Source: Terebella lapidaria (lineage: Eukaryota > Annelida > Polychaeta > Terebellida > Terebellidae). Taken from it: DNA of 64,000 nucleotides. Below are positions 6,744 to 34,597 of this stretch, in pieces. Each line of letters starts with the position of its first letter. The first letter of the stretch is position 1. The notes below the pieces were generated by a model. That model ran no database searches. It had not been told where the DNA came from and saw nothing but the letters and a program-made list of their open reading frames with translations. Location of the stretch: the NCBI GenBank assembly GCA_949152475.1, contig OX424562.1, positions 4,464,001 to 4,528,000 on the forward strand. The letters are read 5' to 3'. The position numbers and the translations under genes were made by a program.

Positions 6744-6793
6744 TGTGTTTAGGTTACCGACCTTTGTTCTGAAAACCTATTGCACAATTAATA

Positions 6794-8638: not shown

Positions 8639-8642
8639 TTTA

Positions 8643-9381: not shown

Positions 9382-9385
9382 TTTA

Positions 9386-9893
9386 GTTGATTTTAAAAAA
9401 AAATAAAATTTTCATAACCGTTTTTATAGGAAACTAACTTCTGTGAACTGTGATAATCAACGATAGGAATATATCAGTAACACAAAGTGATGAAGGCAGA
9501 TACAGACAACCCCATACTTGTTGTGTTGTGAATAAACTTTCCAACAAAAAACTTTCTTTCATAACCAATTGTCATATTTATATCCAACCACTAACTATAG
9601 AGGAATAACTGAGATCAAAATTGCCCTGGAGATTCATCTGATGACCTGCCTATTCAAGACAACAGATCAAGAGAATAGATCTATTCGAGTCAACAATATG
9701 CCTATGTAGTGTCAAGCACCACATACCCACACAGGAAAATTAAGAACGAATGAAATTATGAGCAATGGCAGTGCTGCGGATCACACCAAACAGTGATTTT
9801 ACTGCACAATATTGTGGAAACAACGCCTACTGGATGACTATTCAATTTGAAGGTGTGAAAGTGTGGGTCACACTGAACATACCTCTGCATAAC
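9386..9893. other. Non-coding spacer between two solo LTRs
   Basis: About 500 bp of AT-rich sequence. Each neighbouring LTR has its own target duplication, so this is pre-existing sequence rather than the internal region of one element flanked by both LTRs. Confidence 0.5.
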
Positions 9894-9897
9894 ATTC

Positions 9898-10148
9898 TGT
9901 GGCGATTTTGCCCTAAGCACGCGGCAGGTGATTGTAAACATAAATGCCATTTATGTGGCCTTTTCGTACTTGGCCTTGTTTTGACACGCTCCGTTCGAGC
10001 GTGCGTTGCCACGGCGACGCATTGTACTTTACGCTCCAGTAAACTATAACAATGGATCGATTAGACCTCGCGTGCGCCCTACAGCTTGTGGTGTATTATA
10101 TATACACTGGAAGCGACTCGATCGAGGAGATTGTCCGAGAGATCGAGA
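9898..10148 (+). mobile_element. Solo LTR, family L1, copy B, 5' part (split)
   Basis: It starts TGTGGCGATT and is nearly identical to copy A over the first 250 bp, then is interrupted at CTAG by an LTR retrotransposon. It resumes at 12,184. The flanking duplication is ATTC (9,894-9,897) against ATTG (12,665-12,668), one mismatch in four. Copy A shows the uninterrupted sequence at the junction (gtgaacaggacgcac). Confidence 0.75.
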
Positions 10149-10152
10149 CTAG

Positions 10153-10598
10153 TGTAAGATCCACATTACAGTAATTAAATCAGTTCAAAATGTTCGTTAA
10201 TTATTATCAGAAAATGTAATCTGGATGGGCCATCTGCCCTTGCATGTCATGTACACATGAAGCTAGGTGTTTCATTAAGTGACTCCAACCCCTGCTGTTC
10301 CGGATACTGATTAAGATGCCAAGTCCCGCCAGGGGACTGTAATCACAGCTAGTCTGTGTTTATTCAATGTACATGTACAGGGGAGGAGTCAGGATCCAAT
10401 TAATGTGCTCTACCTTGTTCATATATGCCGGCAAGGCTTTCAATAAAGTCAGTTTTTGGATTTGACTTCAAACTATACACATCGTTGTTGTCTCTCTATA
10501 AACACAGAACCCAGGCTGGCTGGCTTTGGCCAGTCCGGCCTGGACAGAAATACAGACTTGTGAAATTTGTGAATATGGAGAAAATCGCAAATTTTACA
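10153..10598 (+). repeat. 5' LTR of the nested retrotransposon
   Basis: 446 bp, TG...CA. It contains a poly(A)-signal-like caataaag near 10,440, a likely R/U5 landmark. It is identical or nearly so to the 3' LTR for roughly the first 400 bp, then differs at several sites in the last 35 bp. Confidence 0.85.
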
Positions 10599-11733
10599 TT
10601 GGCGTCGCGTTTGGCCAGGACTGAATATTTCGAATTGGATTCTTCTGGATTAAACGCAGGCAGGTCAGAAGTTTCTCACGCCCAACAGAAATCCAGAGAT
10701 GTACGTGTTCCTCTGGTTGGCGAGCGATGAATGATTACAGAATGTGAACAAACAGAACACTGACAGGCGACATCGGCATTGGGTATCTCCAGCATCACAG
10801 CTTTTCTGCGACACTTCCAGGCATGACTGGATATGGCGGGGTGAATTAATATACCCGCGAAATTCTGCGTTGGCACAACTGATTTTGCGTGTCACCGCAT
10901 CTACAGAAACTACAGGAACCGAGTTACAGATGAAGGCGCATCTGATGTCTACAGAGGGACATCACTGCGTTTATGGCGAAATCCGACCAACTAAACCGAT
11001 ACAGTACCGAGCGAGACGGCGCAACTGATGTTCAATGACGGGGGGACATCACTGCGCACACCGAATCAACATGGTTCGACCTATATGACCACAGAGAGCA
11101 CGGAGACGCCACAGAGCTCCGACAAAACTGTGGTTTTCGCAGGACATAGATGTGGAGATGGACGCTGCCTGATGTCGTCTGCCAGTCCAGAAATATCAGG
11201 TTAATAAAGACAACTGTTTTCACTGATTGATACAGTCCGATTGTACATCATCGCGATTGAGATATTACCCATCGACGTTAAGCACTGACAGACGCACGCA
11301 GGGATTGCCGGGGTCATGACTCACAACATGTGATGGATTTGTGCCGAAAACTTGACGGTTGCAGTGGTGCAGCCGAGACGTTATTCAAACACTTTGTACT
11401 GTCTATTATATGCGTAACTTTTTATGTTCAATTATATTAATTTTGTTGAATGGTGACATCAGAAACCTACCAATTTCTTTGTGAAAAAATATACTGTTTA
11501 TATTTTCGACGATTCCGAGAATTATTTTGTATGGTTTCTGCTATTTTGTCCAATTTCCATTGCTGAAATGTAATGAGATTTATTGTCTCTTCACTGTCAT
11601 TGAGTAATGCCATATACATGATATGGTCCTACATAGATATTGTGATAATCCACATATAACTGAGTAATGTGTATCTTATATCTTTTTAATGTTTGAGTAA
11701 AAATATAATTTTTACTTATTGAGAGAGGGCGTG

Positions 11734-12179
11734 TGTAAGATCCACATTACAGTAATTAAATCAGTTCAAAATGTTCGTTAATTATTATCAGAAAATGTAA
11801 TCTGGATGGGCCATCTGCCCTTGCATGTCATGTACACATGAAGCTAGGTGTTTCATTAAGTGACTCCAACCCCTGCTGTTCCGGATACTGATTAAGATGC
11901 CAAGTCCCGCCAGGGGACTGTAATCACAGCTAGTCTGTGTTTATTCAATGTACATGTACAGGGGAGGAGTCAGGATCCAATTAATGTGCTCTACCTTGTT
12001 CATATATGCCGGCAAGGCTTTCAATAAAGTCAGTTTTTGGATTTGACTTCAAACTATACACATCGTTGTTGTCTCTCTATAAACACAGAACCCAGGCTGG
12101 CTGGCTTTGGCCAGTCCGGCCTGGACAGAAATACAGACTTGTGAAGTTTGTGTAAACAGAAAAAAGCACAAATTTTACA
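11734..12179 (+). repeat. 3' LTR of the nested retrotransposon
   Basis: 446 bp, same ends as the 5' LTR. Preceded by the purine tract gagagaggg and followed by the CTAG duplication. Confidence 0.85.
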
Positions 12180-12183
12180 CTAG

Positions 12184-12664
12184 GACGCACACGAGGCTCG
12201 CCATTAGCTTTGTGTTCCCTGGGTCTGAGTAGAGGGCTCCTAGAGCCCTGGGGACGATTTCCATGGGGAGGCCCGGGCTGGGAGAGACAAGTTGCTGACT
12301 CGGGGGCGTACGCCCTGTGGATCGCCAGTTCTCTCCCTTCCCGGGACGTGTGACAGAGGCTCTGGCCAGCATGTCGGACTGTACGGGGTTCCGTCCCCGA
12401 GGCAGACCGCGGCTCGCCAGGCCCCGCCAGTTAACACCGTAGGGATGAACTAGTTTCTGAACGGTGTCCGTAGGCCTGGGAGTGTCGGGTGGGCTGTTAC
12501 CTGGTTACCGTTAATGCTGAAGTAGTTACCGTGTCCGCAGCGACCTCCGGTGAGCGGCCCTGCCGCAAGGATCCGGAATAGCGGATGCGCGTCCGCAAGG
12601 ACTCGGATGAGAGAGGACTATCCTCGAGGATCCCGAGGAGCGGACGGTAGTCAATAACTTTACA
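12184..12664 (+). mobile_element. Solo LTR, family L1, copy B, 3' part
   Basis: Continues copy B after the nested retrotransposon. It is nearly identical to copy A from the gacgcac word onward and ends AACTTTACA. It is followed by ATTG, the partner of ATTC at 9,894-9,897. Confidence 0.75.
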
Positions 12665-12791
12665 ATTGAATCTGTAAAATCGTGGTTATAACATATTATT
12701 ATTTCATTAATATCATGTATACAATGGACAAATTTTATCGTCATTATTATTTGTTACTATTACATATTGCATGTATCAAACAGAATAATTT

Positions 12792-12830
12792 CACTCTGAT
12801 ATATTCATCACTCGTCAATATATCAGAGTG
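12792..12830. other. Perfect 14-bp-stem hairpin
   Basis: CACTCTGATATATT (12,792-12,805) and AATATATCAGAGTG (12,817-12,830) are exact reverse complements around an 11-base loop. It lies alone in AT-rich sequence. No U-run follows immediately and no gene is near, so no function is assigned. Confidence 0.6.
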
Positions 12831-13852
12831 GTTGAATCATGTGTAGAGATACAAAATTATGTCAGTAAAATTTTGACAGCGCATATCTTTCTGTTGTTAT
12901 CCATGTTATCGGTCTGGCTTCCTATTGTGACAATAAAATTGAGTGAAATACTGACCGGAGTCTTTTTTATTTGATCAACAAAGAACACGGTTTCGTGTAC
13001 AATAACCTATACTGAACAAAATAATATAAACGAAAAAATAAGCCTATTTGACATGGGGAGGTTATATTTTGTCCAGCATGTTCACTGTACAACTCGGCAT
13101 GAATGGAATTACTTATAATGTAATGGGTGTTTAATTTTCTTCCCTATACTAGAATAACTGTGTGTATGTCAGGCTCCAGTCTTTTGTGGATATCAAAAAG
13201 TTTCTGATGCATTCAAATAAATCTGTTAACATATGGAAAATACCTATAGCCGTGGTAAGGAAAAAATATGTATATGTTCTTGTATAAATGTTCAACAAGT
13301 GAATTCATTAATAAGCAAAGATATGTCATTGTACCAGTTCAATATTTGGAAGAAAATAATGTTGGGCAATATTAAATTTTTTTTTGTGCTTGCAAGCATT
13401 AATTTGAACGAAAATTGCATAATTTGAACTATTCACCATCCAGCATCAGGCATTCAAAAGTCCTTTGCGTTTTGGAACATAAGGCGCCAAAGTTCTAGAA
13501 TATACGCACGAATACGGCATAACTCACTATCATATACTCGTATACAGTAGTGAGCATACTGATTCATGTATGCATGTTCGCGTGACGCTATACAGAAATC
13601 TACTTTTTTCTAGAGTATCCTGCTTGCGTGAAATTACGGTACCGGGCGGCCGTTGTCATGGAGTCGCGTTGTGATGTCTCGCAGTTCCAGTCTCGTTGTT
13701 TGTCCACGACACAAAAAAGTCATCTAGCTGCCGTATTCATGTTATATACTCGAATAAAAAATGCAATAACCGATTGAGGAACGCTCGTGAAACCATATTG
13801 CGAAACGATGCTTCGCAAAAAAAAAAAATCACTGAGCGGTGAAATTCGCTCC
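12831..13852. other. Non-coding interior of FB-A
   Basis: About 1 kb of mostly AT-rich sequence with a short GC-richer patch at 13,630-13,720 (taccgggcggccgttgtc). Open frames here are short and of unlikely composition. Confidence 0.4.
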
Positions 13853-14056
13853 CAGATCGCTTCCGGTCAAAATTCGCAGAGATGAAAATTGTGATCATAG
13901 TAGCTGGGACTATCTTTAGTTTTTGCTGCTTTCAGTGCTTTGGTGTTATTTTCCCAGATCGCTTCCGGTCAAAATTCGCAGAGATGAAAATTGTGATCAT
14001 AGTAGCTGGGACTATCTTTAGTTTTTGCTGCTTTCAGTGCTTTGGTGTTTTTTTCT
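13853..14056 (+). repeat. 102-bp tandem duplication with an in-frame hydrophobic reading frame
   Basis: Two essentially identical 102-bp units follow each other (cagatcgcttccggtc begins near 13,853 and 13,955). Since 102 is 34 codons, the plus-strand frame from 13,882 to 14,076 repeats a hydrophobic stretch (IVIIVAGTIF...FCCFQCFG) twice. It resembles a signal peptide or membrane helix. With no upstream gene context it is treated as a repeat rather than a gene. Confidence 0.6.
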
Positions 14057-14094
14057 CGGACATGCAATACCATTAGACGCGCCTCGCTGCGTTA

Positions 14095-15450
14095 TCACTT
14101 TATAAATGTCCACAATTGATTGCTAAGCTGTAAAGTAGATAATGAGGGAGATATTAGCCTTTTTGTTCTGTAACCTTGAAAATTAGGTCAAAGATCAATT
14201 CAAGGTCACGAGAATATTCAGCACATATCATTTCCTATATGTTCACAATTGATTCCTATGCTGTAAAGTCGATAATAAGCGAGATATTGGCCATTTTGTC
14301 CTGTGACCTTGAAAATTAGGTCGAAGGTCAAATTCAAGGTCATGACAATAATCAGTATATATCATTTCCTATATGTCCACAATTGATTCCTAATCTCTAA
14401 TCTCAATAGTAAGCGAGATATTTGGAAAAATGTGCCCCATTATAAAGCATAGGAGAATTGTACATGCGAAAGTCCCATTTGGGCCGAGTTTGGGCCCAAA
14501 ATGGCCCACTTCGAGCGATTTAAGGGCAACGAAACTTATACACGTCACAGGGGTGGTAAATATGAGGAGTGTTATGCATCAATAAGAAAAAAAGTCACTG
14601 AACAGTTCTTGAGAAAATGGCCGCCAAAGTAAAAAAATTGGTTGTTTTTTGTCAAAAATGGCCGCCATTTTGAAAAAAAAATGTGAAAATCCAAAAACTA
14701 AAAAATACCTCGCTCTCAAAATATTTTTAGGCATTTTTGTGCAAAATGTGGCGATTATTTGGTAACCGTAGTTTGCGACAGGTGTTCTGGCAACGCCACT
14801 GTAATATTGATCGGTCTGAGTAGAGGCCGGTGGACGTTGCTAGGGATTAGAACGTCAGGCGCTAGTGATTCTCCTCTCTACGTTATAACAATTGTGTATA
14901 CGCTGTGCACTTGCAGCCTGGGCAATATAGTCAACAGCTTGCCCAGATTCTTGGCAGTCTGTTCCCTGACGCCTTGGGGGTAACTGCAGAGCGGCGCACA
15001 GCTCATGTCCCGTCTGTAATAAGTGGGCTGCGGCCCCGGGACCAAATATATATGGAGGCCCCGGTCATGGATCATGACCGGGGATCTTGTGCGTACAGGC
15101 TCTGGTAGACTGTCGGACTGTCCGGAGTTCCATCTCCGTGTCAGGACCGTCAGCAAGGCCGGACGAACAACAAGCCCACGCTGTTGGCTCCGGGCACCCA
15201 AGTTATGGTGTACTCGGGCCTCCGGCAACGGCGACATTACTATAACTATTCATTATATGATGTGTGATGTGATGTTTGTCTACTAACCATGCTATGACGG
15301 TACTAACCTGGTTGCTACTTAACGAAGTCACATTCGTTACAAAAATTTAAAGATAAAATTGTTTACGGACGACGGACGACGGATGGACGGACGACGGACG
15401 CAACGCGATGCCAATATGTTATCGGACCAAAGGTCCGGTAGCCCAAAAAA
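14095..15450. mobile_element. FX-family element, truncated copy, interrupted by a solo LTR
   Basis: 14,095-14,420 contains three imperfect ~125-bp units, each with tgtccacaattgattcc, an agcgagatatt-like word and ccttgaaaattaggtc / caaggtcat. 14,430-14,746 carries the family words aaaatggccgccattttg. At 14,746 it is split by a solo LTR and resumes at 15,342 with taaagataaaattgttt. It ends in gacggacgac repeats and a hairpin terminus (atcggaccaaaggtccggta, 15,421-15,440). A second, separate tail of the same kind lies at 15,480-15,617. The full-size relative is 46,216-49,355. Non-coding. Confidence 0.6.
14747..15341 (+). mobile_element. Solo LTR, family L1, divergent copy C (595 bp)
   Basis: It begins TGTGGCGATT like copies A and B and ends CGTTACA. 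It is flanked by AAAA (14,743-14,746 and 15,342-15,345). Removing it restores the FX sequence tgcaaaattt, which is intact in the relative near 49,230. Internally it shares words with copy A such as tgtcggactgt and a TATA-like aaatatatatgg near 15,045, but is clearly older or from a sub-family. Open frames of about 90-120 codons inside are by-products. Confidence 0.75.
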
Positions 15451-15636
15451 TCTTTCAGAAAAGTGCTTCCCTGTATTCTTAGGCATTTTAGCGCAAATTT
15501 CGAAAAGATTCGACCGTAAATTCGAGATAAAAATAAAAATGTACGACGTATGACGGACGACGACGGATGAAGGACGCAATGCCATGCAATGGGTTATCAG
15601 ATCAAGGTTCCGTAAAAAGACATAACAATAAAAGAC

Positions 15637-15862
15637 ATTCCTCATGTGGAACCTAATGCTGTGTTTGATTTTCACATTTGTGGGCAAATGACAAAAACCG
15701 TTTTCACATTTGTGGTTAAATTTTTTTTTCACATTTGTGGGTGGATTTTTTTTCACATTTGTGGGTAATGATATTTTCACATTTGTGGGTGATTTACAAA
15801 ATTTGTTTTCACATTTGTGGGTTTTCACATTTGTGGGCGTTTTAACATTTGTGGGTTCAACA
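15637..15862 (-). repeat. FB-A right arm: inverted copy of the CACAAATGTG minisatellite
   Basis: About nine ttttcacatttgtggg units, the reverse complement of 6,467-6,743. The order of spacers (for example gatttacaaaatttg beside the outer units) matches the left arm, so the arms were once one sequence and its inverse. A 163-codon frame on the minus strand at 15,337-15,828 is simply this minisatellite read through. Confidence 0.8.
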
Positions 15863-15868
15863 GACGCC

Positions 15869-16257: not shown

Positions 16258-16309
16258 CTATCGTACGGAGCCTCTGAGAGGACATGGAAGAAATATTTTT
16301 AGCACATTG

Positions 16310-16522
16310 TTATTGCGTTCCCTCGCAATATTATCGCGTTCCCTCGCAATAATATTGCGTTCCCTCGCAATATTATCGCGTTCCCTCGCATTCCGGATCG
16401 CGTTCCCTCGCGATCTTATTGCGTTCCCTCGCAATCCGGATCGCGTTCCCTCGCAATCCAGATCGCGTTCCCTCGCGATATTACCGCGTTCCCTTGCGAT
16501 ATTATCGCGTTCCCTCGCGATC
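16310..16522 (+). repeat. FB-B left arm minisatellite (10 units)
   Basis: Ten 21-22-bp units with a constant GCGTTCCCTCGC core and variable edges. Most units can fold on themselves (for example ATTGCG-TTCCCT-CGCAAT and GATCGCG-TTCCCT-CGCGATC), with TTCCCT in the loop. Two more units of this arm lie beyond the array at 34,189-34,227. Confidence 0.85.
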
Positions 16523-16525
16523 TTA

Positions 16526-16995
16526 AGGGCAGTGTTCAGTAATTCGCTCAGCCAATCAGCGAGCGTTCACCTCACTTAGGCAATTTAAAGGGAAACTGTT
16601 GTTAAACATCGCCTCATATATTTTTTTAGGCCCGACTTCTGGACGAGTGTATATTCACCTGAAAGAACGCAGTGCTGGGAAATAATGACCCGGTTTTCAA
16701 GGCAGTATCTTGTTGGCGTTCTTCTCAGGTGCTGGGGAATCAAAGGGGTTTTGCATGGGCATCAGTACCCATAATTTGGGGTATTTTCACCCCGGGTCCA
16801 TTCAAGGCAGAATAGCGAAAAATCCCATGTGTCGTCAAATATATTCATGCTTACCACGCAATGCCCAATACGTTGAGGGATAAAACTAGCATAGTGGTTA
16901 GGCTGGGATTTTTTTTTAGGAAGGTGTTATGGACCGTCAAAGTAAGATCATTTAACATTGAGTTGAATGGCCAATATAATTAATATACTGTAGCC
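16526..16995 (+). mobile_element. Segment E (first copy): possible 470-bp MITE with TTA flanks
   Basis: E is flanked by TTA on both sides in every monomer. Its ends are weakly inverted: TAAGGGCAGTGTTCAGTAATT at the left against the complement TAAGGCTACAGTATATTAATT at the right, sharing TAAGG and about 14 of 21 positions. A 3-bp TTA duplication and a GGG-type end fit PIF/Harbinger-like MITEs. The terminal match is poor, so this is a hypothesis. It contains a CCAAT word (cagccaatcagcgagcg). Confidence 0.4.
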
Positions 16996-16998
16996 TTA

Positions 16999-17845
16999 AC
17001 TGGTTACACAATTTTCACTCTGCGTGGCCTGGGAGCGCAAAAAATGTCATAATTTGTTTGACTAGGTAACAGTTGAAGGTTCCCGACCTAATTCAATGTT
17101 CATTTGCCGTGTTTTGTGTGGTTAAGGAGGAAATTGTGGAATACACATAAATCACATGGTCGGTCGGCATACAAAAAATGTTCTAACTATCCTCAGCAGC
17201 TAAATTATGACTTGAATTTCAATTTGTGTGCACAATATTAACGATACTGATCCATTTCAATAGCTTAGCCTTCTACAGGTGTCAGGGACTAGGAAATTTT
17301 CACCACCGGTCCAGATCACAAGAAGTGAGGTCGGCCCTATGCCGAGCGCACGCTTATCATAAGCAGCCCCCCTGACCCTCACATCATTCTAGAGACACAA
17401 GGTTGCATGCAATTAATAACCCCTTGATATTCTTGACTCTCTAAATAAATTATTAGTGGTTTGTTACGTTTCACATGGGTTCTATAGATAATTTTCCGTT
17501 TTTAGTGTGATAAATTCACGGTTTTCTTTAATCTTACTTTACTAAATAATCCAAACTGCCATTGAATTATACCAACGATTGGGTCTTGGTGCTAATTGCA
17601 CTTATATTCTATACTTATTTTGAAATTTTCAAGGCTTTTGCATGAAAACTCAATGAGTTTTCAACAATTTCAATTCTAAGAATTTGGCAGACTGGCAAAT
17701 CCCAGCACATGTAGCATATGTATTAAATGGGCTGAAACAGAGAATTGAACCGGGATATCAGGTTTATATTTCGTTTCACAATTGCATACATATAAGACTA
17801 CCTACTGACAAAATATAATTCATATATCTCAGAAACGCCTATATA
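16999..17845 (+). repeat. Segment S (first copy) of the satellite monomer
   Basis: 847-bp segment between E copies (844 bp where aag is missing). On the minus strand it contains an imperfect Pol III B-box-like word (GGTTCAATTC, 17,742-17,751) and an A-box-like word (gtcagtaggtagtc, about 17,797-17,810) roughly 55-60 bases upstream. No protein-coding frame. Origin unknown. Confidence 0.5.
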
Positions 17846-20800
17846 TTAAGGGCAGTGTTCAGTAATTCGCTCAGCCAATCAGCGAGCGTTCACCTCACTT
17901 AGGCAATTTAAAGGGAAACTGCTGTTAAACATCGCCTCATATATTTTTTTAGGCCCGACTTCTGGACGAGTGTATATTCACCTGAAAGAACGCAGTGCTG
18001 GGAAATAATGACCCGGTTTTCAAGGCAGTATCTTGTTGGCGTTCTTCTCAGGTGCTGGGGAATCAAAGGGGTTTTGCATGGGCATCAGTACCCATAATTT
18101 GGGGTATTTTCACCCCGGGTCCATTCAAGGCAGAATAGCGAAAAATCCCATGTGTCGTCAAATATATTCATGCTTACCACGCAATGCCCAATACGTTGAG
18201 GGATAAAACTAGCATAGTGGTTAGGCTGGGATTTTTTTTTAGGAAGGTGTTATGGACCGTCAAAGTAAGATCATTTAACATTGAGTTGAATGGCCAATAT
18301 AATTAATATACTGTAGCCTTAACTGGTTACACAATTTTCACTCTGCGTGGCCTGGGAGCGCAAAAAATGTCATAATTTGTTTGACTAGGTAACAGTTGAA
18401 GGTTCCCGACCTAATTCAATGTTCATTTGCCGTGTTTTGTGTGGTTAAGGAGGAAATTGTGGAATACACATAAATCACATGGTCGGTCGGCATACAAAAA
18501 ATGTTCTAACTATCCTCAGCAGCTAAATTATGACTTGAATTTCAATTTGTGTGCACAATATTAACGATACTGATCCATTTCAATAGCTTAGCCTTCTACA
18601 GGTGTCAGGGACTAGGAAATTTTCACCACCGGTCCAGATCACAAGTGAGGTCGGCCCTATGCCGAGCGCACGCTTATCATAAGCAGCCCCCCTGACCCTC
18701 ACATCATTCTAGAGACACAAGGTTGCATGCAATTAATAACCCCTTGATATTCTTGACTCTCTAAATAAATTATTAGTGGTTTGTTACGTTTCACATGGGT
18801 TCTATAGATAATTTTCCGTTTTTAGTGTGATAAATTCACGGTTTTCTTTAATCTTACTTTACTAAATAATCCAAACTGCCATTGAATTATACCAACGATT
18901 GGGTCTTGGTGCTAATTGCACTTATATTCTATACTTATTTTGAAATTTTCAAGGCTTTTGCATGAAAACTCAATGAGTTTTCAACAATTTCAATTCTAAG
19001 AATTTGGCAGACTGGCAAATCCCAGCACATGTAGCATATGTATTAAATGGGCTGAAACAGAGAATTGAACCGGGATATCAGGTTTATATTTCGTTTCACA
19101 ATTGCATACATATAAGACTACCTACTGACAAAATATAATTCATATATCTCAGAAACGCCTATATATTAAGGGCAGTGTTCAGTAATTCGCTCAGCCAATC
19201 AGCGAGCGTTCACCTCACTTAGGCAATTTAAAGGGAAACTGTTGTTAAACATCGCCTCATATATTTTTTTAGGCCCGACTTCTGGACGAGTGTATATTCA
19301 CCTGAAAGAACGCAGTGCTGGGAAATAATGACCCGGTTTTCAAGGCAGTATCTTGTTGGCGTTCTTCTCAGGTGCTGGGGAATCAAAGGGGTTTTGCATG
19401 GGCATCAGTACCCATAATTTGGGGTATTTTCACCCCGGGTCCATTCAAGGCAGAATAGCGAAAAATCCCATGTGTCGTCAAATATATTCATGCTTACCAC
19501 GCAATGCCCAATACGTTGAGGGATAAAACTAGCATAGTGGTTAGGCTGGGATTTTTTTTTAGGAAGGTGTTATGGACCGTCAAAGTAAGATCATTTAACA
19601 TTGAGTTGAATGGCCAATATAATTAATATACTGTAGCCTTAACTGGTTACACAATTTTCACTCTGCGTGGCCTGGGAGCGCAAAAAATGTCATAATTTGT
19701 TTGACTAGGTAACAGTTGAAGGTTCCCGACCTAATTCAATGTTCATTTGCCGTGTTTTGTGTGGTTAAGGAGGAAATTGTGGAATACACATAAATCACAT
19801 GGTCGGTCGGCATACAAAAAATGTTCTAACTATCCTCAGCAGCTAAATTATGACTTGAATTTCAATTTGTGTGCACAATATTAACGATACTGATCCATTT
19901 CAATAGCTTAGCCTTCTACAGGTGTCAGGGACTAGGAAATTTTCACCACCGGTCCAGATCACAAGAAGTGAGGTCGGCCCTATGCCGAGCGCACGCTTAT
20001 CATAAGCAGCCCCCCTGACCCTCACATCATTCTAGAGACACAAGGTTGCATGCAATTAATAACCCCTTGATATTCTTGACTCTCTAAATAAATTATTAGT
20101 GGTTTGTTACGTTTCACATGGGTTCTATAGATAATTTTCCGTTTTTAGTGTGATAAATTCACGGTTTTCTTTAATCTTACTTTACTAAATAATCCAAACT
20201 GCCATTGAATTATACCAACGATTGGGTCTTGGTGCTAATTGCACTTATATTCTATACTTATTTTGAAATTTTCAAGGCTTTTGCATGAAAACTCAATGAG
20301 TTTTCAACAATTTCAATTCTAAGAATTTGGCAGACTGGCAAATCCCAGCACATGTAGCATATGTATTAAATGGGCTGAAACAGAGAATTGAACCGGGATA
20401 TCAGGTTTATATTTCGTTTCACAATTGCATACATATAAGACTACCTACTGACAAAATATAATTCATATATCTCAGAAACGCCTATATATTAAGGGCAGTG
20501 TTCAGTAATTCGCTCAGCCAATCAGCGAGCGTTCACCTCACTTAGGCAATTTAAAGGGAAACTGCTGTTAAACATCGCCTCATATATTTTTTTAGGCCCG
20601 ACTTCTGGACGAGTGTATATTCACCTGAAAGAACGCAGTGCTGGGAAATAATGACCCGGTTTTCAAGGCAGTATCTTGTTGGCGTTCTTCTCAGGTGCTG
20701 GGGAATCAAAGGGGTTTTGCATGGGCATCAGTACCCATAATTTGGGGTATTTTCACCCCGGGTCCATTCAAGGCAGAATAGCGAAAAATCCCATGTGTCG

Positions 20801-23800
20801 TCAAATATATTCATGCTTACCACGCAATGCCCAATACGTTGAGGGATAAAACTAGCATAGTGGTTAGGCTGGGATTTTTTTTTAGGAAGGTGTTATGGAC
20901 CGTCAAAGTAAGATCATTTAACATTGAGTTGAATGGCCAATATAATTAATATACTGTAGCCTTAACTGGTTACACAATTTTCACTCTGCGTGGCCTGGGA
21001 GCGCAAAAAATGTCATAATTTGTTTGACTAGGTAACAGTTGAAGGTTCCCGACCTAATTCAATGTTCATTTGCCGTGTTTTGTGTGGTTAAGGAGGAAAT
21101 TGTGGAATACACATAAATCACATGGTCGGTCGGCATACAAAAAATGTTCTAACTATCCTCAGCAGCTAAATTATGACTTGAATTTCAATTTGTGTGCACA
21201 ATATTAACGATACTGATCCATTTCAATAGCTTAGCCTTCTACAGGTGTCAGGGACTAGGAAATTTTCACCACCGGTCCAGATCACAAGTGAGGTCGGCCC
21301 TATGCCGAGCGCACGCTTATCATAAGCAGCCCCCCTGACCCTCACATCATTCTAGAGACACAAGGTTGCATGCAATTAATAACCCCTTGATATTCTTGAC
21401 TCTCTAAATAAATTATTAGTGGTTTGTTACGTTTCACATGGGTTCTATAGATAATTTTCCGTTTTTAGTGTGATAAATTCACGGTTTTCTTTAATCTTAC
21501 TTTACTAAATAATCCAAACTGCCATTGAATTATACCAACGATTGGGTCTTGGTGCTAATTGCACTTATATTCTATACTTATTTTGAAATTTTCAAGGCTT
21601 TTGCATGAAAACTCAATGAGTTTTCAACAATTTCAATTCTAAGAATTTGGCAGACTGGCAAATCCCAGCACATGTAGCATATGTATTAAATGGGCTGAAA
21701 CAGAGAATTGAACCGGGATATCAGGTTTATATTTCGTTTCACAATTGCATACATATAAGACTACCTACTGACAAAATATAATTCATATATCTCAGAAACG
21801 CCTATATATTAAGGGCAGTGTTCAGTAATTCGCTCAGCCAATCAGCGAGCGTTCACCTCACTTAGGCAATTTAAAGGGAAACTGTTGTTAAACATCGCCT
21901 CATATATTTTTTTAGGCCCGACTTCTGGACGAGTGTATATTCACCTGAAAGAACGCAGTGCTGGGAAATAATGACCCGGTTTTCAAGGCAGTATCTTGTT
22001 GGCGTTCTTCTCAGGTGCTGGGGAATCAAAGGGGTTTTGCATGGGCATCAGTACCCATAATTTGGGGTATTTTCACCCCGGGTCCATTCAAGGCAGAATA
22101 GCGAAAAATCCCATGTGTCGTCAAATATATTCATGCTTACCACGCAATGCCCAATACGTTGAGGGATAAAACTAGCATAGTGGTTAGGCTGGGATTTTTT
22201 TTTAGGAAGGTGTTATGGACCGTCAAAGTAAGATCATTTAACATTGAGTTGAATGGCCAATATAATTAATATACTGTAGCCTTAACTGGTTACACAATTT
22301 TCACTCTGCGTGGCCTGGGAGCGCAAAAAATGTCATAATTTGTTTGACTAGGTAACAGTTGAAGGTTCCCGACCTAATTCAATGTTCATTTGCCGTGTTT
22401 TGTGTGGTTAAGGAGGAAATTGTGGAATACACATAAATCACATGGTCGGTCGGCATACAAAAAATGTTCTAACTATCCTCAGCAGCTAAATTATGACTTG
22501 AATTTCAATTTGTGTGCACAATATTAACGATACTGATCCATTTCAATAGCTTAGCCTTCTACAGGTGTCAGGGACTAGGAAATTTTCACCACCGGTCCAG
22601 ATCACAAGAAGTGAGGTCGGCCCTATGCCGAGCGCACGCTTATCATAAGCAGCCCCCCTGACCCTCACATCATTCTAGAGACACAAGGTTGCATGCAATT
22701 AATAACCCCTTGATATTCTTGACTCTCTAAATAAATTATTAGTGGTTTGTTACGTTTCACATGGGTTCTATAGATAATTTTCCGTTTTTAGTGTGATAAA
22801 TTCACGGTTTTCTTTAATCTTACTTTACTAAATAATCCAAACTGCCATTGAATTATACCAACGATTGGGTCTTGGTGCTAATTGCACTTATATTCTATAC
22901 TTATTTTGAAATTTTCAAGGCTTTTGCATGAAAACTCAATGAGTTTTCAACAATTTCAATTCTAAGAATTTGGCAGACTGGCAAATCCCAGCACATGTAG
23001 CATATGTATTAAATGGGCTGAAACAGAGAATTGAACCGGGATATCAGGTTTATATTTCGTTTCACAATTGCATACATATAAGACTACCTACTGACAAAAT
23101 ATAATTCATATATCTCAGAAACGCCTATATATTAAGGGCAGTGTTCAGTAATTCGCTCAGCCAATCAGCGAGCGTTCACCTCACTTAGGCAATTTAAAGG
23201 GAAACTGTTGTTAAACATCGCCTCATATATTTTTTTAGGCCCGACTTCTGGACGAGTGTATATTCACCTGAAAGAACGCAGTGCTGGGAAATAATGACCC
23301 GGTTTTCAAGGCAGTATCTTGTTGGCGTTCTTCTCAGGTGCTGGGGAATCAAAGGGGTTTTGCATGGGCATCAGTACCCATAATTTGGGGTATTTTCACC
23401 CCGGGTCCATTCAAGGCAGAATAGCGAAAAATCCCATGTGTCGTCAAATATATTCATGCTTACCACGCAATGCCCAATACGTTGAGGGATAAAACTAGCA
23501 TAGTGGTTAGGCTGGGATTTTTTTTTAGGAAGGTGTTATGGACCGTCAAAGTAAGATCATTTAACATTGAGTTGAATGGCCAATATAATTAATATACTGT
23601 AGCCTTAACTGGTTACACAATTTTCACTCTGCGTGGCCTGGGAGCGCAAAAAATGTCATAATTTGTTTGACTAGGTAACAGTTGAAGGTTCCCGACCTAA
23701 TTCAATGTTCATTTGCCGTGTTTTGTGTGGTTAAGGAGGAAATTGTGGAATACACATAAATCACATGGTCGGTCGGCATACAAAAAATGTTCTAACTATC

Positions 23801-26800
23801 CTCAGCAGCTAAATTATGACTTGAATTTCAATTTGTGTGCACAATATTAACGATACTGATCCATTTCAATAGCTTAGCCTTCTACAGGTGTCAGGGACTA
23901 GGAAATTTTCACCACCGGTCCAGATCACAAGAAGTGAGGTCGGCCCTATGCCGAGCGCACGCTTATCATAAGCAGCCCCCCTGACCCTCACATCATTCTA
24001 GAGACACAAGGTTGCATGCAATTAATAACCCCTTGATATTCTTGACTCTCTAAATAAATTATTAGTGGTTTGTTACGTTTCATATGGGTTCTATAGATAA
24101 TTTTCCGTTTTTAGTGTGATAAATTCACGGTTTTCTTTAATCTTACTTTACTAAATAATCCAAACTGCCATTGAATTATACCAACGATTGGGTCTTGGTG
24201 CTAATTGCACTTATATTCTATACTTATTTTGAAATTTTCAAGGCTTTTGCATGAAAACTCAATGAGTTTTCAACAATTTCAATTCTAAGAATTTGGCAGA
24301 CTGGCAAATCCCAGCACATGTAGCATATGTATTAAATGGGCTGAAACAGAGAATTGAACCGGGATATCAGGTTTATATTTCGTTTCACAATTGCATACAT
24401 ATAAGACTACCTACTGACAAAATATAATTCATATATCTCAGAAACGCCTATATATTAAGGGCAGTGTTCAGTAATTCGCTCAGCCAATCAGCGAGCGTTC
24501 ACCTCACTTAGGCAATTTAAAGGGAAACTGCTGTTAAACATCGCCTCATATATTTTTTTAGGCCCGACTTCTGGACGAGTGTATATTCACCTGAAAGAAC
24601 GCAGTGCTGGGAAATAATGACCCGGTTTTCAAGGCAGTATCTTGTTGGCGTTCTTCTCAGGTGCTGGGGAATCAAAGGGGTTTTGCATGGGCATCAGTAC
24701 CCATAATTTGGGGTATTTTCACCCCGGGTCCATTCAAGGCAGAATAGCGAAAAATCCCATGTGTCGTCAAATATATTCATGCTTACCACGCAATGCCCAA
24801 TACGTTGAGGGATAAAACTAGCATAGTGGTTAGGCTGGGATTTTTTTTTAGGAAGGTGTTATGGACCGTCAAAGTAAGATCATTTAACATTGAGTTGAAT
24901 GGCCAATATAATTAATATACTGTAGCCTTAACTGGTTACACAATTTTCACTCTGCGTGGCCTGGGAGCGCAAAAAATGTCATAATTTGTTTGACTAGGTA
25001 ACAGTTGAAGGTTCCCGACCTAATTCAATGTTCATTTGCCGTGTTTTGTGTGGTTAAGGAGGAAATTGTGGAATACACATAAATCACATGGTCGGTCGGC
25101 ATACAAAAAATGTTCTAACTATCCTCAGCAGCTAAATTATGACTTGAATTTCAATTTGTGTGCACAATATTAACGATACTGATCCATTTCAATAGCTTAG
25201 CCTTCTACAGGTGTCAGGGACTAGGAAATTTTCACCACCGGTCCAGATCACAAGTGAGGTCGGCCCTATGCCGAGCGCACGCTTATCATAAGCAGCCCCC
25301 CTGACCCTCACATCATTCTAGAGACACAAGGTTGCATGCAATTAATAACCCCTTGATATTCTTGACTCTCTAAATAAATTATTAGTGGTTTGTTACGTTT
25401 CACATGGGTTCTATAGATAATTTTCCGTTTTTAGTGTGATAAATTCACGGTTTTCTTTAATCTTACTTTACTAAATAATCCAAACTGCCATTGAATTATA
25501 CCAACGATTGGGTCTTGGTGCTAATTGCACTTATATTCTATACTTATTTTGAAATTTTCAAGGCTTTTGCATGAAAACTCAATGAGTTTTCAACAATTTC
25601 AATTCTAAGAATTTGGCAGACTGGCAAATCCCAGCACATGTAGCATATGTATTAAATGGGCTGAAACAGAGAATTGAACCGGGATATCAGGTTTATATTT
25701 CGTTTCACAATTGCATACATATAAGACTACCTACTGACAAAATATAATTCATATATCTCAGAAACGCCTATATATTAAGGGCAGTGTTCAGTAATTCGCT
25801 CAGCCAATCAGCGAGCGTTCACCTCACTTAGGCAATTTAAAGGGAAACTGTTGTTAAACATCGCCTCATATATTTTTTTAGGCCCGACTTCTGGACGAGT
25901 GTATATTCACCTGAAAGAACGCAGTGCTGGGAAATAATGACCCGGTTTTCAAGGCAGTATCTTGTTGGCGTTCTTCTCAGGTGCTGGGGAATCAAAGGGG
26001 TTTTGCATGGGCATCAGTACCCATAATTTGGGGTATTTTCACCCCGGGTCCATTCAAGGCAGAATAGCGAAAAATCCCATGTGTCGTCAAATATATTCAT
26101 GCTTACCACGCAATGCCCAATACGTTGAGGGATAAAACTAGCATAGTGGTTAGGCTGGGATTTTTTTTTAGGAAGGTGTTATGGACCGTCAAAGTAAGAT
26201 CATTTAACATTGAGTTGAATGGCCAATATAATTAATATACTGTAGCCTTAACTGGTTACACAATTTTCACTCTGCGTGGCCTGGGAGCGCAAAAAATGTC
26301 ATAATTTGTTTGACTAGGTAACAGTTGAAGGTTCCCGACCTAATTCAATGTTCATTTGCCGTGTTTTGTGTGGTTAAGGAGGAAATTGTGGAATACACAT
26401 AAATCACATGGTCGGTCGGCATACAAAAAATGTTCTAACTATCCTCAGCAGCTAAATTATGACTTGAATTTCAATTTGTGTGCACAATATTAACGATACT
26501 GATCCATTTCAATAGCTTAGCCTTCTACAGGTGTCAGGGACTAGGAAATTTTCACCACCGGTCCAGATCACAAGAAGTGAGGTCGGCCCTATGCCGAGCG
26601 CACGCTTATCATAAGCAGCCCCCCTGACCCTCACATCATTCTAGAGACACAAGGTTGCATGCAATTAATAACCCCTTGATATTCTTGACTCTCTAAATAA
26701 ATTATTAGTGGTTTGTTACGTTTCACATGGGTTCTATAGATAATTTTCCGTTTTTAGTGTGATAAATTCACGGTTTTCTTTAATCTTACTTTACTAAATA

Positions 26801-29800
26801 ATCCAAACTGCCATTGAATTATACCAACGATTGGGTCTTGGTGCTAATTGCACTTATATTCTATACTTATTTTGAAATTTTCAAGGCTTTTGCATGAAAA
26901 CTCAATGAGTTTTCAACAATTTCAATTCTAAGAATTTGGCAGACTGGCAAATCCCAGCACATGTAGCATATGTATTAAATGGGCTGAAACAGAGAATTGA
27001 ACCGGGATATCAGGTTTATATTTCGTTTCACAATTGCATACATATAAGACTACCTACTGACAAAATATAATTCATATATCTCAGAAACGCCTATATATTA
27101 AGGGCAGTGTTCAGTAATTCGCTCAGCCAATCAGCGAGCGTTCACCTCACTTAGGCAATTTAAAGGGAAACTGTTGTTAAACATCGCCTCATATATTTTT
27201 TTAGGCCCGACTTCTGGACGAGTGTATATTCACCTGAAAGAACGCAGTGCTGGGAAATAATGACCCGGTTTTCAAGGCAGTATCTTGTTGGCGTTCTTCT
27301 CAGGTGCTGGGGAATCAAAGGGGTTTTGCATGGGCATCAGTACCCATAATTTGGGGTATTTTCACCCCGGGTCCATTCAAGGCAGAATAGCGAAAAATCC
27401 CATGTGTCGTCAAATATATTCATGCTTACCACGCAATGCCCAATACGTTGAGGGATAAAACTAGCATAGTGGTTAGGCTGGGATTTTTTTTTAGGAAGGT
27501 GTTATGGACCGTCAAAGTAAGATCATTTAACATTGAGTTGAATGGCCAATATAATTAATATACTGTAGCCTTAACTGGTTACACAATTTTCACTCTGCGT
27601 GGCCTGGGAGCGCAAAAAATGTCATAATTTGTTTGACTAGGTAACAGTTGAAGGTTCCCGACCTAATTCAATGTTCATTTGCCGTGTTTTGTGTGGTTAA
27701 GGAGGAAATTGTGGAATACACATAAATCACATGGTCGGTCGGCATACAAAAAATGTTCTAACTATCCTCAGCAGCTAAATTATGACTTGAATTTCAATTT
27801 GTGTGCACAATATTAACGATACTGATCCATTTCAATAGCTTAGCCTTCTACAGGTGTCAGGGACTAGGAAATTTTCACCACCGGTCCAGATCACAAGAAG
27901 TGAGGTCGGCCCTATGCCGAGCGCACGCTTATCATAAGCAGCCCCCCTGACCCTCACATCATTCTAGAGACACAAGGTTGCATGCAATTAATAACCCCTT
28001 GATATTCTTGACTCTCTAAATAAATTATTAGTGGTTTGTTACGTTTCACATGGGTTCTATAGATAATTTTCCGTTTTTAGTGTGATAAATTCACGGTTTT
28101 CTTTAATCTTACTTTACTAAATAATCCAAACTGCCATTGAATTATACCAACGATTGGGTCTTGGTGCTAATTGCACTTATATTCTATACTTATTTTGAAA
28201 TTTTCAAGGCTTTTGCATGAAAACTCAATGAGTTTTCAACAATTTCAATTCTAAGAATTTGGCAGACTGGCAAATCCCAGCACATGTAGCATATGTATTA
28301 AATGGGCTGAAACAGAGAATTGAACCGGGATATCAGGTTTATATTTCGTTTCACAATTGCATACATATAAGACTACCTACTGACAAAATATAATTCATAT
28401 ATCTCAGAAACGCCTATATATTAAGGGCAGTGTTCAGTAATTCGCTCAGCCAATCAGCGAGCGTTCACCTCACTTAGGCAATTTAAAGGGAAACTGTTGT
28501 TAAACATCGCCTCATATATTTTTTTAGGCCCGACTTCTGGACGAGTGTATATTCACCTGAAAGAACGCAGTGCTGGGAAATAATGACCCGGTTTTCAAGG
28601 CAGTATCTTGTTGGCGTTCTTCTCAGGTGCTGGGGAATCAAAGGGGTTTTGCATGGGCATCAGTACCCATAATTTGGGGTATTTTCACCCCGGGTCCATT
28701 CAAGGCAGAATAGCGAAAAATCCCATGTGTCGTCAAATATATTCATGCTTACCACGCAATGCCCAATACGTTGAGGGATAAAACTAGCATAGTGGTTAGG
28801 CTGGGATTTTTTTTTAGGAAGGTGTTATGGACCGTCAAAGTAAGATCATTTAACATTGAGTTGAATGGCCAATATAATTAATATACTGTAGCCTTAACTG
28901 GTTACACAATTTTCACTCTGCGTGGCCTGGGAGCGCAAAAAATGTCATAATTTGTTTGACTAGGTAACAGTTGAAGGTTCCCGACCTAATTCAATGTTCA
29001 TTTGCCGTGTTTTGTGTGGTTAAGGAGGAAATTGTGGAATACACATAAATCACATGGTCGGTCGGCATACAAAAAATGTTCTAACTATCCTCAGCAGCTA
29101 AATTATGACTTGAATTTCAATTTGTGTGCACAATATTAACGATACTGATCCATTTCAATAGCTTAGCCTTCTACAGGTGTCAGGGACTAGGAAATTTTCA
29201 CCACCGGTCCAGATCACAAGAAGTGAGGTCGGCCCTATGCCGAGCGCACGCTTATCATAAGCAGCCCCCCTGACCCTCACATCATTCTAGAGACACAAGG
29301 TTGCATGCAATTAATAACCCCTTGATATTCTTGACTCTCTAAATAAATTATTAGTGGTTTGTTACGTTTCACATGGGTTCTATAGATAATTTTCCGTTTT
29401 TAGTGTGATAAATTCACGGTTTTCTTTAATCTTACTTTACTAAATAATCCAAACTGCCATTGAATTATACCAACGATTGGGTCTTGGTGCTAATTGCACT
29501 TATATTCTATACTTATTTTGAAATTTTCAAGGCTTTTGCATGAAAACTCAATGAGTTTTCAACAATTTCAATTCTAAGAATTTGGCAGACTGGCAAATCC
29601 CAGCACATGTAGCATATGTATTAAATGGGCTGAAACAGAGAATTGAACCGGGATATCAGGTTTATATTTCGTTTCACAATTGCATACATATAAGACTACC
29701 TACTGACAAAATATAATTCATATATCTCAGAAACGCCTATATATTAAGGGCAGTGTTCAGTAATTCGCTCAGCCAATCAGCGAGCGTTCACCTCACTTAG

Positions 29801-32800
29801 GCAATTTAAAGGGAAACTGTTGTTAAACATCGCCTCATATATTTTTTTAGGCCCGACTTCTGGACGAGTGTATATTCACCTGAAAGAACGCAGTGCTGGG
29901 AAATAATGACCCGGTTTTCAAGGCAGTATCTTGTTGGCGTTCTTCTCAGGTGCTGGGGAATCAAAGGGGTTTTGCATGGGCATCAGTACCCATAATTTGG
30001 GGTATTTTCACCCCGGGTCCATTCAAGGCAGAATAGCGAAAAATCCCATGTGTCGTCAAATATATTCATGCTTACCACGCAATGCCCAATACGTTGAGGG
30101 ATAAAACTAGCATAGTGGTTAGGCTGGGATTTTTTTTTAGGAAGGTGTTATGGACCGTCAAAGTAAGATCATTTAACATTGAGTTGAATGGCCAATATAA
30201 TTAATATACTGTAGCCTTAACTGGTTACACAATTTTCACTCTGCGTGGCCTGGGAGCGCAAAAAATGTCATAATTTGTTTGACTAGGTAACAGTTGAAGG
30301 TTCCCGACCTAATTCAATGTTCATTTGCCGTGTTTTGTGTGGTTAAGGAGGAAATTGTGGAATACACATAAATCACATGGTCGGTCGGCATACAAAAAAT
30401 GTTCTAACTATCCTCAGCAGCTAAATTATGACTTGAATTTCAATTTGTGTGCACAATATTAACGATACTGATCCATTTCAATAGCTTAGCCTTCTACAGG
30501 TGTCAGGGACTAGGAAATTTTCACCACCGGTCCAGATCACAAGAAGTGAGGTCGGCCCTATGCCGAGCGCACGCTTATCATAAGCAGCCCCCCTGACCCT
30601 CACATCATTCTAGAGACACAAGGTTGCATGCAATTAATAACCCCTTGATATTCTTGACTCTCTAAATAAATTATTAGTGGTTTGTTACGTTTCACATGGG
30701 TTCTATAGATAATTTTCCGTTTTTAGTGTGATAAATTCACGGTTTTCTTTAATCTTACTTTACTAAATAATCCAAACTGCCATTGAATTATACCAACGAT
30801 TGGGTCTTGGTGCTAATTGCACTTATATTCTATACTTATTTTGAAATTTTCAAGGCTTTTGCATGAAAACTCAATGAGTTTTCAACAATTTCAATTCTAA
30901 GAATTTGGCAGACTGGCAAATCCCAGCACATGTAGCATATGTATTAAATGGGCTGAAACAGAGAATTGAACCGGGATATCAGGTTTATATTTCGTTTCAC
31001 AATTGCATACATATAAGACTACCTACTGACAAAATATAATTCATATATCTCAGAAACGCCTATATATTAAGGGCAGTGTTCAGTAATTCGCTCAGCCAAT
31101 CAGCGAGCGTTCACCTCACTTAGGCAATTTAAAGGGAAACTGCTGTTAAACATCGCCTCATATATTTTTTTAGGCCCGACTTCTGGACGAGTGTATATTC
31201 ACCTGAAAGAACGCAGTGCTGGGAAATAATGACCCGGTTTTCAAGGCAGTATCTTGTTGGCGTTCTTCTCAGGTGCTGGGGAATCAAAGGGGTTTTGCAT
31301 GGGCATCAGTACCCATAATTTGGGGTATTTTCACCCCGGGTCCATTCAAGGCAGAATAGCGAAAAATCCCATGTGTCGTCAAATATATTCATGCTTACCA
31401 CGCAATGCCCAATACGTTGAGGGATAAAACTAGCATAGTGGTTAGGCTGGGATTTTTTTTTAGGAAGGTGTTATGGACCGTCAAAGTAAGATCATTTAAC
31501 ATTGAGTTGAATGGCCAATATAATTAATATACTGTAGCCTTAACTGGTTACACAATTTTCACTCTGCGTGGCCTGGGAGCGCAAAAAATGTCATAATTTG
31601 TTTGACTAGGTAACAGTTGAAGGTTCCCGACCTAATTCAATGTTCATTTGCCGTGTTTTGTGTGGTTAAGGAGGAAATTGTGGAATACACATAAATCACA
31701 TGGTCGGTCGGCATACAAAAAATGTTCTAACTATCCTCAGCAGCTAAATTATGACTTGAATTTCAATTTGTGTGCACAATATTAACGATACTGATCCATT
31801 TCAATAGCTTAGCCTTCTACAGGTGTCAGGGACTAGGAAATTTTCACCACCGGTCCAGATCACAAGAAGTGAGGTCGGCCCTATGCCGAGCGCACGCTTA
31901 TCATAAGCAGCCCCCCTGACCCTCACATCATTCTAGAGACACAAGGTTGCATGCAATTAATAACCCCTTGATATTCTTGACTCTCTAAATAAATTATTAG
32001 TGGTTTGTTACGTTTCACATGGGTTCTATAGATAATTTTCCGTTTTTAGTGTGATAAATTCACGGTTTTCTTTAATCTTACTTTACTAAATAATCCAAAC
32101 TGCCATTGAATTATACCAACGATTGGGTCTTGGTGCTAATTGCACTTATATTCTATACTTATTTTGAAATTTTCAAGGCTTTTGCATGAAAACTCAATGA
32201 GTTTTCAACAATTTCAATTCTAAGAATTTGGCAGACTGGCAAATCCCAGCACATGTAGCATATGTATTAAATGGGCTGAAACAGAGAATTGAACCGGGAT
32301 ATCAGGTTTATATTTCGTTTCACAATTGCATACATATAAGACTACCTACTGACAAAATATAATTCATATATCTCAGAAACGCCTATATATTAAGGGCAGT
32401 GTTCAGTAATTCGCTCAGCCAATCAGCGAGCGTTCACCTCACTTAGGCAATTTAAAGGGAAACTGTTGTTAAACATCGCCTCATATATTTTTTTAGGCCC
32501 GACTTCTGGACGAGTGTATATTCACCTGAAAGAACGCAGTGCTGGGAAATAATGACCCGGTTTTCAAGGCAGTATCTTGTTGGCGTTCTTCTCAGGTGCT
32601 GAGGAATCAAAGGGGTTTTGCATGGGCATCAGTACCCATAATTTGGGGTATTTTCACCCCGGGTCCATTCAAGGCAGAATAGCGAAAAATCCCATGTGTC
32701 GTCAAATATATTCATGCTTACCACGCAATGCCCAATACGTTGAGGGATAAAACTAGCATAGTGGTTAGGCTTGGATTTTTTTTTAGGAAGGTGTTATGGA

Positions 32801-34188
32801 CCGTCAAAGTAAGATCATTTAACATTGAGTTGAATGGCCAATATAATTAATATACTGTAGCCTTAACTGGTTACACAATTTTCACTCTGCGTGGCCTGGG
32901 AGCGCAAAAAATGTCATAATTTGTTTGACTAGGTAACAGTTGAAGGTTCCCGACCTAATTCAATGTTCATTTGCCGTGTTTTGTGTGGTTAAGGAGGAAA
33001 TTGTGGAATACACATAAATCACATGGTCGGTCGGCATACAAAAAATGTTCTAACTATCCTCAGCAGCTAAATTATGACTTGAATTTCAATTTGTGTGCAC
33101 AATATTAACGATACTGATCCATTTCAATAGCTTAGCCTTCTACAGGTGTCAGGGACTAGGAAATTTTCACCACCGGTCCAGATCACAAGAAGTGAGGTCG
33201 GCCCTATGCCGAGCGCACGCTTATCATAAGCAGCCCCCCTGACCCTCACATCATTCTAGAGACACAAGGTTGCATGCAATTAATAACCCCTTGATATTCT
33301 TGACTCTCTAAATAAATTATTAGTGGTTTGTTACGTTTCACATGGGTTCTATAGATAATTTTCCGTTTTTAGTGGGATAAATTCACGGTTTTCTTTAATC
33401 TTACTTTACTAAATAATCCAAACTGCCATTGAATTATACCAACGATTGGGTCTTGGTGCTAATTGCACTTATATTCTATACTTATTTTGAAATTTTCAAG
33501 GCTTTTGCATGAAAACTCAATGAGTTTTCAACAATTTCAATTCTAAGAATTTGGCAGACTGGCAAATCCCAGCACATGTAGCATATGTATTAAATGGGCT
33601 GAAACAGAGAATTGAACCGGGATATCAGGTTTATATTTCGTTTCACAATTGCATACATATAAGACTACCTACTGACAAAATATAATTCATATATCTCAGA
33701 AACGCCTATATATTAAGGGCAGTGTTCAGTAATTCGCTCAGCCAATCAGCGAGCGTTCACCTCACTTAGGCAATTTAAAGGGAAACTGTTGTTAAACATC
33801 GCCTCATATATTTTTTTAGGCCCGACTTCTGGACGAGTGTATATTCACCTGAAAGAACGCAGTGCTGGGAAATAATGACCCGGTTTTCAAGGCAGTATCT
33901 TGTTGGCGTTCTTCTCAGGTGCTGGGGAATCAAAGGGGTTTTGCATGGGCATCAGTACCCATAATTTGGGGTATTTTCACCCCGGGTCCATTCAAGGCAG
34001 AATAGCGAAAAATCCCATGTGTCGTCAAATATATTCATGCTTACCACGCAATGCCCAATACGTTGAGGGATAAAACTAGCATAGTGGTTAGGCTGGGATT
34101 TTTTTTTAGGAAGGTGTTATGGACCGTCAAAGTAAGATCATTTAACATTGAGTTGAATGGCCAATATAATTAATATACTGTAGCCTTA

Positions 34189-34543
34189 TTGCGTTCCCTC
34201 GCATTCTGGATCGCGTTCCCTCGCATTGTGCTGACGCCAATGACTTCTGAGAAGGTTATTCTACAAGATCGCGAGGGAACGCGATCCGGAATGCGAGGGA
34301 ACGCGATTTTATCGCGAGGGAACGCGATAATATCGCGAGGGAACGCGATCTGGATTGCGAGGGAACGCAATAAGATCGCGAGGGAACGCGATCCGGATTG
34401 CGAGGGAACGCAATAAGATCGCGAGGGAACGCGATCCGGATTGCGAGGGAACGCGATAAGATCGCGAGGGAACGCGATCCGGATTGCGAGGGAACGCGAT
34501 AATATTGCGAGGGAACGCAATATTATTGCGAGGGAACGCAATA
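34189..34543 (-). repeat. FB-B inner left-arm units, loop and right arm
   Basis: 34,189-34,227 holds two units in the left-arm direction. 34,228-34,265 is the unique loop (gtgctgacgccaatgacttc...). 34,266-34,543 holds 13 units in inverse orientation, core GCGAGGGAACGC. This shows that the array interrupts the left arm instead of lying in the loop. A 133-codon minus-strand frame over this stretch is minisatellite translated into RSLAI/AFPR repeats. Confidence 0.85.
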
Positions 34544-34597
34544 ACCGTATGTCAAAAAATATTTCTTCCATGTCCTTTCAGCGGCTCCGTACTATCG

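Follow-up and report, generated by a model that had tools for sequence, protein, structure and literature searches.

The stretch considered here (the window) is 64,000 nucleotides of the Terebella lapidaria genome, positions 4464001-4528000 of contig 8 in an assembly of 761.6 Mb and 438 contigs, and it contains a foldback transposon (16264-34591) whose left arm is interrupted by a 17.66-kb satellite array. The arrangement as a whole is probably explained by two unrelated non-coding transposons, one nested in the other, of which the inner one, a 469-bp element referred to as A, carries the satellite, referred to as B. The array starts and ends with A, and A also brackets arrays elsewhere in the genome, which suggests a way of seeding satellite DNA at new sites. 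It has long been an open question how satellite DNA gets to new chromosomal locations, and the routes proposed (circles, rolling-circle elements and ectopic exchange) mostly leave no clear mark; here the array edges are readable to the single base, as the ends of a small transposon, with short direct repeats where both ends are seen.

The array (16527-34185, forward strand) has the form (A-B)13-A, with 13 units of 1323 or 1320 bp followed by 470 bp, the last unit being A only. The first A copy (16527-16995, forward strand; 469 bp, GGGCAG...GTAGCC) is followed by the first B copy with its TTAA junctions (16996-17849, forward strand), which is repeated 13 times, and the last A copy (33717-34185, forward strand) forms the right edge. 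Part of the left foldback arm precedes the array (16312-16522, forward strand, 10 minisatellite units around GCGTTCCCTCGC), and two more units in left-arm orientation lie beyond it (34190-34226, forward strand), so the array interrupts the left arm; it is a separate insertion there, foreign to the repeat of the foldback itself. The insert is flanked by TTAA on the left (16523-16526) and TTAT on the right (34186-34189), taken as a target duplication in which three of the four bases (TTA) are shared, and removal of the insert with one copy of its target leaves a foldback of 665 bp in which the minisatellite register is restored. Within the array the units are 99.6-100% alike, those numbered 2, 4, 6, 7, 12 and 13 being marked by distinct variants; exact repeats reach 4568 bp, and one of 4039 bp occurs at a two-unit shift in the left part. 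The array length and unit number are as in the assembly. The longest frame in the compound A-B unit is 64 amino acids, no copy of A was found in the rest of the window (best match E 0.14), and the window gave no Rfam match at gathering scores.

The properties of A were established from copies across the genome. When the initial 470 bp of the unit were used as query, the best 40 of 1644 candidates were scored, of which 14 lay in the window and 23 in a large array on contig 3 (14.431-14.481 Mb); contigs 17, 11 and 1 each contributed one. A alternates with B on contig 3, where B directly follows B at 3 of 14 loci; B directly after B was also seen on contig 11, and A stands alone on contig 17. The B-B junction reads TATATATTAACTGA, which is precisely the empty site of A and has a single TTAA; A is therefore a mobile element that inserted into satellite B, whose unit is about 850 bp. 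Five solo copies of A (466-469 bp, GGGCAG...GTAGCC) were found on contigs 1 and 17, and four of them are flanked by exact 4-bp duplications, TACA once and ATAA three times. Their terminal inverted repeats agree at 19-21 of 32 bp, with P values of 2e-5 to 1.6e-4 against random pairs. Short, dispersed, without coding capacity, with a constant 4-bp duplication and weak terminal inverted repeats, A resembles a miniature inverted-repeat transposable element, and both A-B and B conform to satellites, with head-to-tail arrays in the window and on contigs 3 and 11 and array starts on contigs 2, 7 and 14. Two other assignments of A were rejected. A duplication of 2 bp (TA, from the register of the terminal repeats) or 3 bp (TTA) disagrees with the 4 bp of the solo copies, in which the register is kept; a Helitron or Helentron with a satellite core disagrees with the 4-bp duplications and with the lack of a 3' hairpin (z -0.32).

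An extensive array bracketed by A was found on contig 11 (41.2635-41.3639 Mb). At its right edge the end of A is followed by ATAATG (GCC, then ATAATG), from which a left edge of ATAA joined to GGGCAG was predicted and then found upstream: ATA plus the left end of A, used as a genome pattern, gave 10 exact matches, one of them at contig 11:41263460 on the correct strand. The array between the A ends measures 100,466 bp and has ATAA on both sides. When it is taken out with one ATAA, the joined flanks form a perfect 18-bp palindrome with a 5-base loop, reached at 0.1% of 3000 random places; the restored palindrome, on the loop side of which the array sits, thus links the two flanks by evidence separate from the duplication. 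A general preference of A for hairpin targets was considered and rejected, a strong palindrome being present at one of nine sites examined, that on contig 11. The pieces of this array that were read consist entirely of A and B, except for a 1.4-kb insert within one A.

The other nine pattern matches include three solo A copies with ATAA on both sides and one with unlike flanks. Three more are array starts at the left end of A, in unrelated flanks, on contigs 2 (57.40 Mb, at 57402835), 7 (at 23804243) and 14 (at 12359288); one is the inner copy in an A-B-A unit on contig 2 near 53.017 Mb, the outer flanks of which are TAAA and TAAA; and one is a disrupted left end that was left unclassified. 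A composite layout, with A outside and a duplication at the outer edges only, is accordingly seen in A-B-A (TAAA), on contig 11 (ATAA) and, with three of four bases, in the window. Because the array edges are the ends of A at all three sites, it would be A, and not the foldback, that let the satellite in, and the movement or loading of the satellite may well go through A, judging from the sequence of these edges. Near 53.017 Mb on contig 2, the A-B-A unit and about 1 kb of flank are seemingly in tandem, the left flank and A recurring 2787 bp on.

The host element is bounded by an exact 6-bp target duplication, CTATCG (16258-16263 and 34592-34597), which comparison with sister copies assigns to the foldback itself and which a sequence-only reading of this stretch had already recognised. 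Its terminal inverted repeats (16264-16307, forward strand; 34548-34591, reverse strand) agree at 35 of 37 bp, so that the length of about 65 bp given in that reading was roughly right while the clean part is shorter. Inverted similarity extends beyond them and through the arms (16260-16521 versus 34311-34595, 83%). The arm units are 21/22 bp long, with 12 on the left (10 before the array and 2 after) and 13, inverted, on the right (34265-34544, reverse strand), and the arms are separated by a 38-bp spacer (34227-34264, forward strand); long inverted repeats of tandem units therefore fill most of the element around a short middle, as defines the foldback class. The minisatellite arms around an array of this size, and the growth of a foldback of about 660 bp almost 28-fold, had likewise been read correctly. 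The arm units form short hairpins (6-bp stem, 6-base loop), the stem being perfect in 16 of 25, and covariation is seen at the third position of the stem (T-A 8, C-G 10, C-A 7, T-G 0; Fisher P 0.008), a P value that is only a guide because the units are related. Two Pfam comparisons gave sub-threshold matches only, and the foldback termini had no match among viral contigs. The flanks were also compared with window positions 1292-1660, sought as a paralogous empty site, and the similarity fades before the junction. Assignment of the host to Mutator-type foldbacks such as Tetris was rejected, as these call for a duplication of 8-10 bp and 6 bp is found here.

With the left arm as genome query, 116 matches were obtained, the best 40 of 1124 first-look candidates were scored, and 20 other copies were fetched from the same genome. 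These sister foldbacks are 516-708 bp long, and all 20 have both terminal repeats (the 44-bp repeat being recovered at 98-100%), the arms and the 38-bp spacer; the number of arm units varies from 11 to 13 on the left and from 7 to 15 on the right. Exact 6-bp target duplications flank 18 of the 20 and none flanks the other two. As a 6-bp match at fixed ends has a chance probability of about 3e-4, the duplications in the sisters and in the window together argue that the latter is not fortuitous. None of the 20 contains A, B or an array, and at the position of the array all of them read TTAT without interruption, leaving the array-bearing foldback as a single case among 21 copies seen. The sequence-only reading had proposed to compare copies with and without arrays and to count missing 6-bp duplications against its interpretation; on that comparison the sisters all proved to be without the array, and the duplication held in all but two.

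The events leading to the present arrangement can be proposed in outline. A foldback of about 665 bp inserted here and duplicated CTATCG, as its intact ends record, and an element with the ends of A would then, very probably, have inserted at TTAT in the left arm. Earlier, A had inserted at TTAA in one B unit to give the compound A-B, an event documented for the genome rather than at the window site. Every compound unit is edged by A, so that a run of A-(B-A)n has the two ends of A outside, and such a run may have moved as a composite transposon or may have been loaded into a solo A by homologous recombination. Local growth and homogenisation would have followed, producing the 13 units of the window and the array of about 100 kb on contig 11, as the homogeneity of the units suggests. 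The B copies of the window differ by 2.9-3.8% from 25 B copies elsewhere, which differ among themselves by 0-2.4%, and the A copies of the window differ by 1.3-3.2% from other A copies; the divergence from other B, combined with the near identity within the window, indicates a separate lineage that was homogenised locally. The 4039-bp repeat at the two-unit shift is compatible with growth by unequal exchange, and a two-unit circle fits it equally.

Composite transposition would call for a single kind of event and is matched by the A-B-A unit, which has a duplication of its own; a short A-B-A that moved and then grew locally is on balance somewhat favoured over recombination into a solo A. The more far-reaching proposal, that arrays of up to about 100 kb in this genome are composite transposons whose A ends are functional, so that A-(B-A)n could be excised, reinserted with 4-bp duplications and expanded, even inside a foldback, is tentative and stands a little short of an even chance. 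Several observations weigh against the account based on A. The unlike flanks in the window mean that a 4-bp duplication would need one later change, and the fifth solo A (contig 17, 17.205 Mb) likewise has unlike flanks, ATAA and TTAA. The inverted repeats of A are weak, the left end at 38.76 Mb on contig 1 is disrupted, and another copy on contig 1 (96.38 Mb) has its right end at the end of A, its left end in mid-B and no duplication. The contig 11 array holds rearranged units along with the broken A, and was read over about 25 kb of its length, in five pieces; the arrays on contigs 2 (57.40 Mb), 7 and 14 are known from the left edge alone. Furthermore, the A loci are the best-scoring or pattern-matched ones rather than a fair or random sample.

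Alternatively, a solo A might have inserted in the foldback arm, with its 4-bp duplication, and served as a landing pad into which an extrachromosomal circle or a distant A-B array recombined through A homology, so that A-(B-A)n came to lie between the flanks of the solo A with no composite transposition. Solo copies with duplications exist, so pads are available, and this route predicts both edges at the ends of A and retained duplications; speculatively, the TTAA found on one side of both unlike-flank sites (the window and 17.205 Mb on contig 17) would be accounted for by a conversion tract derived from an A-B array. It would, however, require two separate events per array site, and A-B-A with its own TAAA duplication is equally simply explained by composite movement. 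The edge A copies on contig 11 are 0.0% different from an inner copy, where a mosaic might have been expected, although homogenisation could mask one. We regard recombination into such a pad as possible but doubtful.

The remaining explanations are considerably weaker. That the foldback itself moves or seeds the satellite, as the sequence-only reading suggested, draws on the array lying wholly within an element whose ends are intact and whose 6-bp duplication is exact; however, the intact CTATCG dates only the insertion of the foldback and lends no support to array movement driven by it. The array has its own edges and its own target duplication, those edges being the ends of A that bracket other arrays in unrelated flanks; the 20 sister copies fetched are all without A, B or array, and the flanks of the other arrays had no matched foldback termini in the stretches examined. 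Carriage by the foldback is thus very improbable: the enlargement of the foldback by the hosted array stands as structure, with the correction that the array interrupts the left arm, is flanked by a second short duplication and has edges belonging to A, and the satellite seems to travel by a transposon-linked route in which the transposon is A. Rolling-circle or microhomology-mediated insertion, in which a break in the arm received a copy of an A-B circle and TTA is chance homology at both joins, would agree with the three bases common to each join, and a circle template would yield homogeneous units, but it leaves unexplained both the solo A copies with duplications and the edges at the ends of A with matching 4-bp flanks on contigs 11 and 2; a helitron-like terminal hairpin was not found at the right end (z -0.32), and we consider this route very unlikely. 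An assembly artefact, in the joins or in the number of units, could be suspected from near-identical units with exact repeats as long as those described above. Both joins nevertheless fall at the true ends of A, found independently elsewhere, the alignment with the sisters is exactly restored once the array is removed, and distinct variants mark six of the units, so that an artefact is most improbable, with the unit number still uncertain.

In bacterial composite transposons, and in paired-end (macro)transposition, two element copies bracket a cargo and the target duplication is found at the outside ends only. The arrays described here differ in that the cargo is a satellite and inner A copies occur in every unit, and transposition is one possible reading of the layout. 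Among eukaryotic systems, the Tetris foldback of Drosophila virilis likewise has arms with tandem repeats and encloses a large satellite-like array (PMC4079207, PubMed Central). Its array consists of expanded 220-bp arm repeats and its duplications are 8-10 bp, whereas in the window a second element bounds the array, which is foreign to the arm, and the duplication of the foldback is 6 bp. The Tc1/mariner-like miniature element miDNA4 of Xenopus (PMC9659126, PMC12628747) similarly houses a satellite, present once or many times, within the termini of a miniature DNA transposon; there the repeat lies within one element, whereas here whole A copies alternate with foreign B and the outermost A copies are the edges. 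The Bari1 cluster in the Drosophila retrotransposon Stalker, attributed to a rolling-circle event (PMC9659126), is likewise a long tandem array involving a DNA transposon and hosted by another transposable element, but its unit is Bari1 itself, while here the unit is element plus satellite and the edges are at element ends with target duplications. Transposon dimers have been proposed as satellite seeds, hobo reaching 16 copies (McGurk and Barbash 2018, via PMC12628747); as with hobo, two copies of one element at one site give homology for unequal exchange, but here a satellite unit that already existed fills the interval between the copies, and the layout is common to several arrays. Oyster satellites in helitrons (PMC8268682) involve a different element type from A. 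No array in which every unit contains the element that also forms the two boundaries was found in the open-licence PubMed Central literature searched, and the open-licence papers listed there as containing any of five sequence strings were unrelated by title.

An array within one transposon, then, need not have been brought there by that transposon. If the account based on A is true, a single genome allows the arrival of an array to be separated from its growth and both to be dated, and populations can be searched for empty, solo, A-B-A and long-array alleles of the same sites.

Other repeats in the window were also noted. Two 92-bp inverted repeats (58969-59060 and 59711-59800), 84% alike and 0.65 kb apart, are perhaps another miniature element; no clear target duplication was found for this pair. 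A second foldback-like element of 9.4 kb (6465-15864) lies 400 bp from the first foldback; its terminal inverted repeats are perfect over 88 bp, and its arms are minisatellites around CCACAAATGTGAAAA, the unit core of which, CACAAATGTG, is likewise a short palindrome. A diverged repeat near 1239-1420 supplies its empty site and points to a 2-bp duplication (CG). Between 8640 and 12667, three blocks of this element recur pairwise in different joins, 96-98% alike: 8640-8890 with 9895-10142, 8899-9384 with 12182-12667, and 10152-10598 with 11733-12179.

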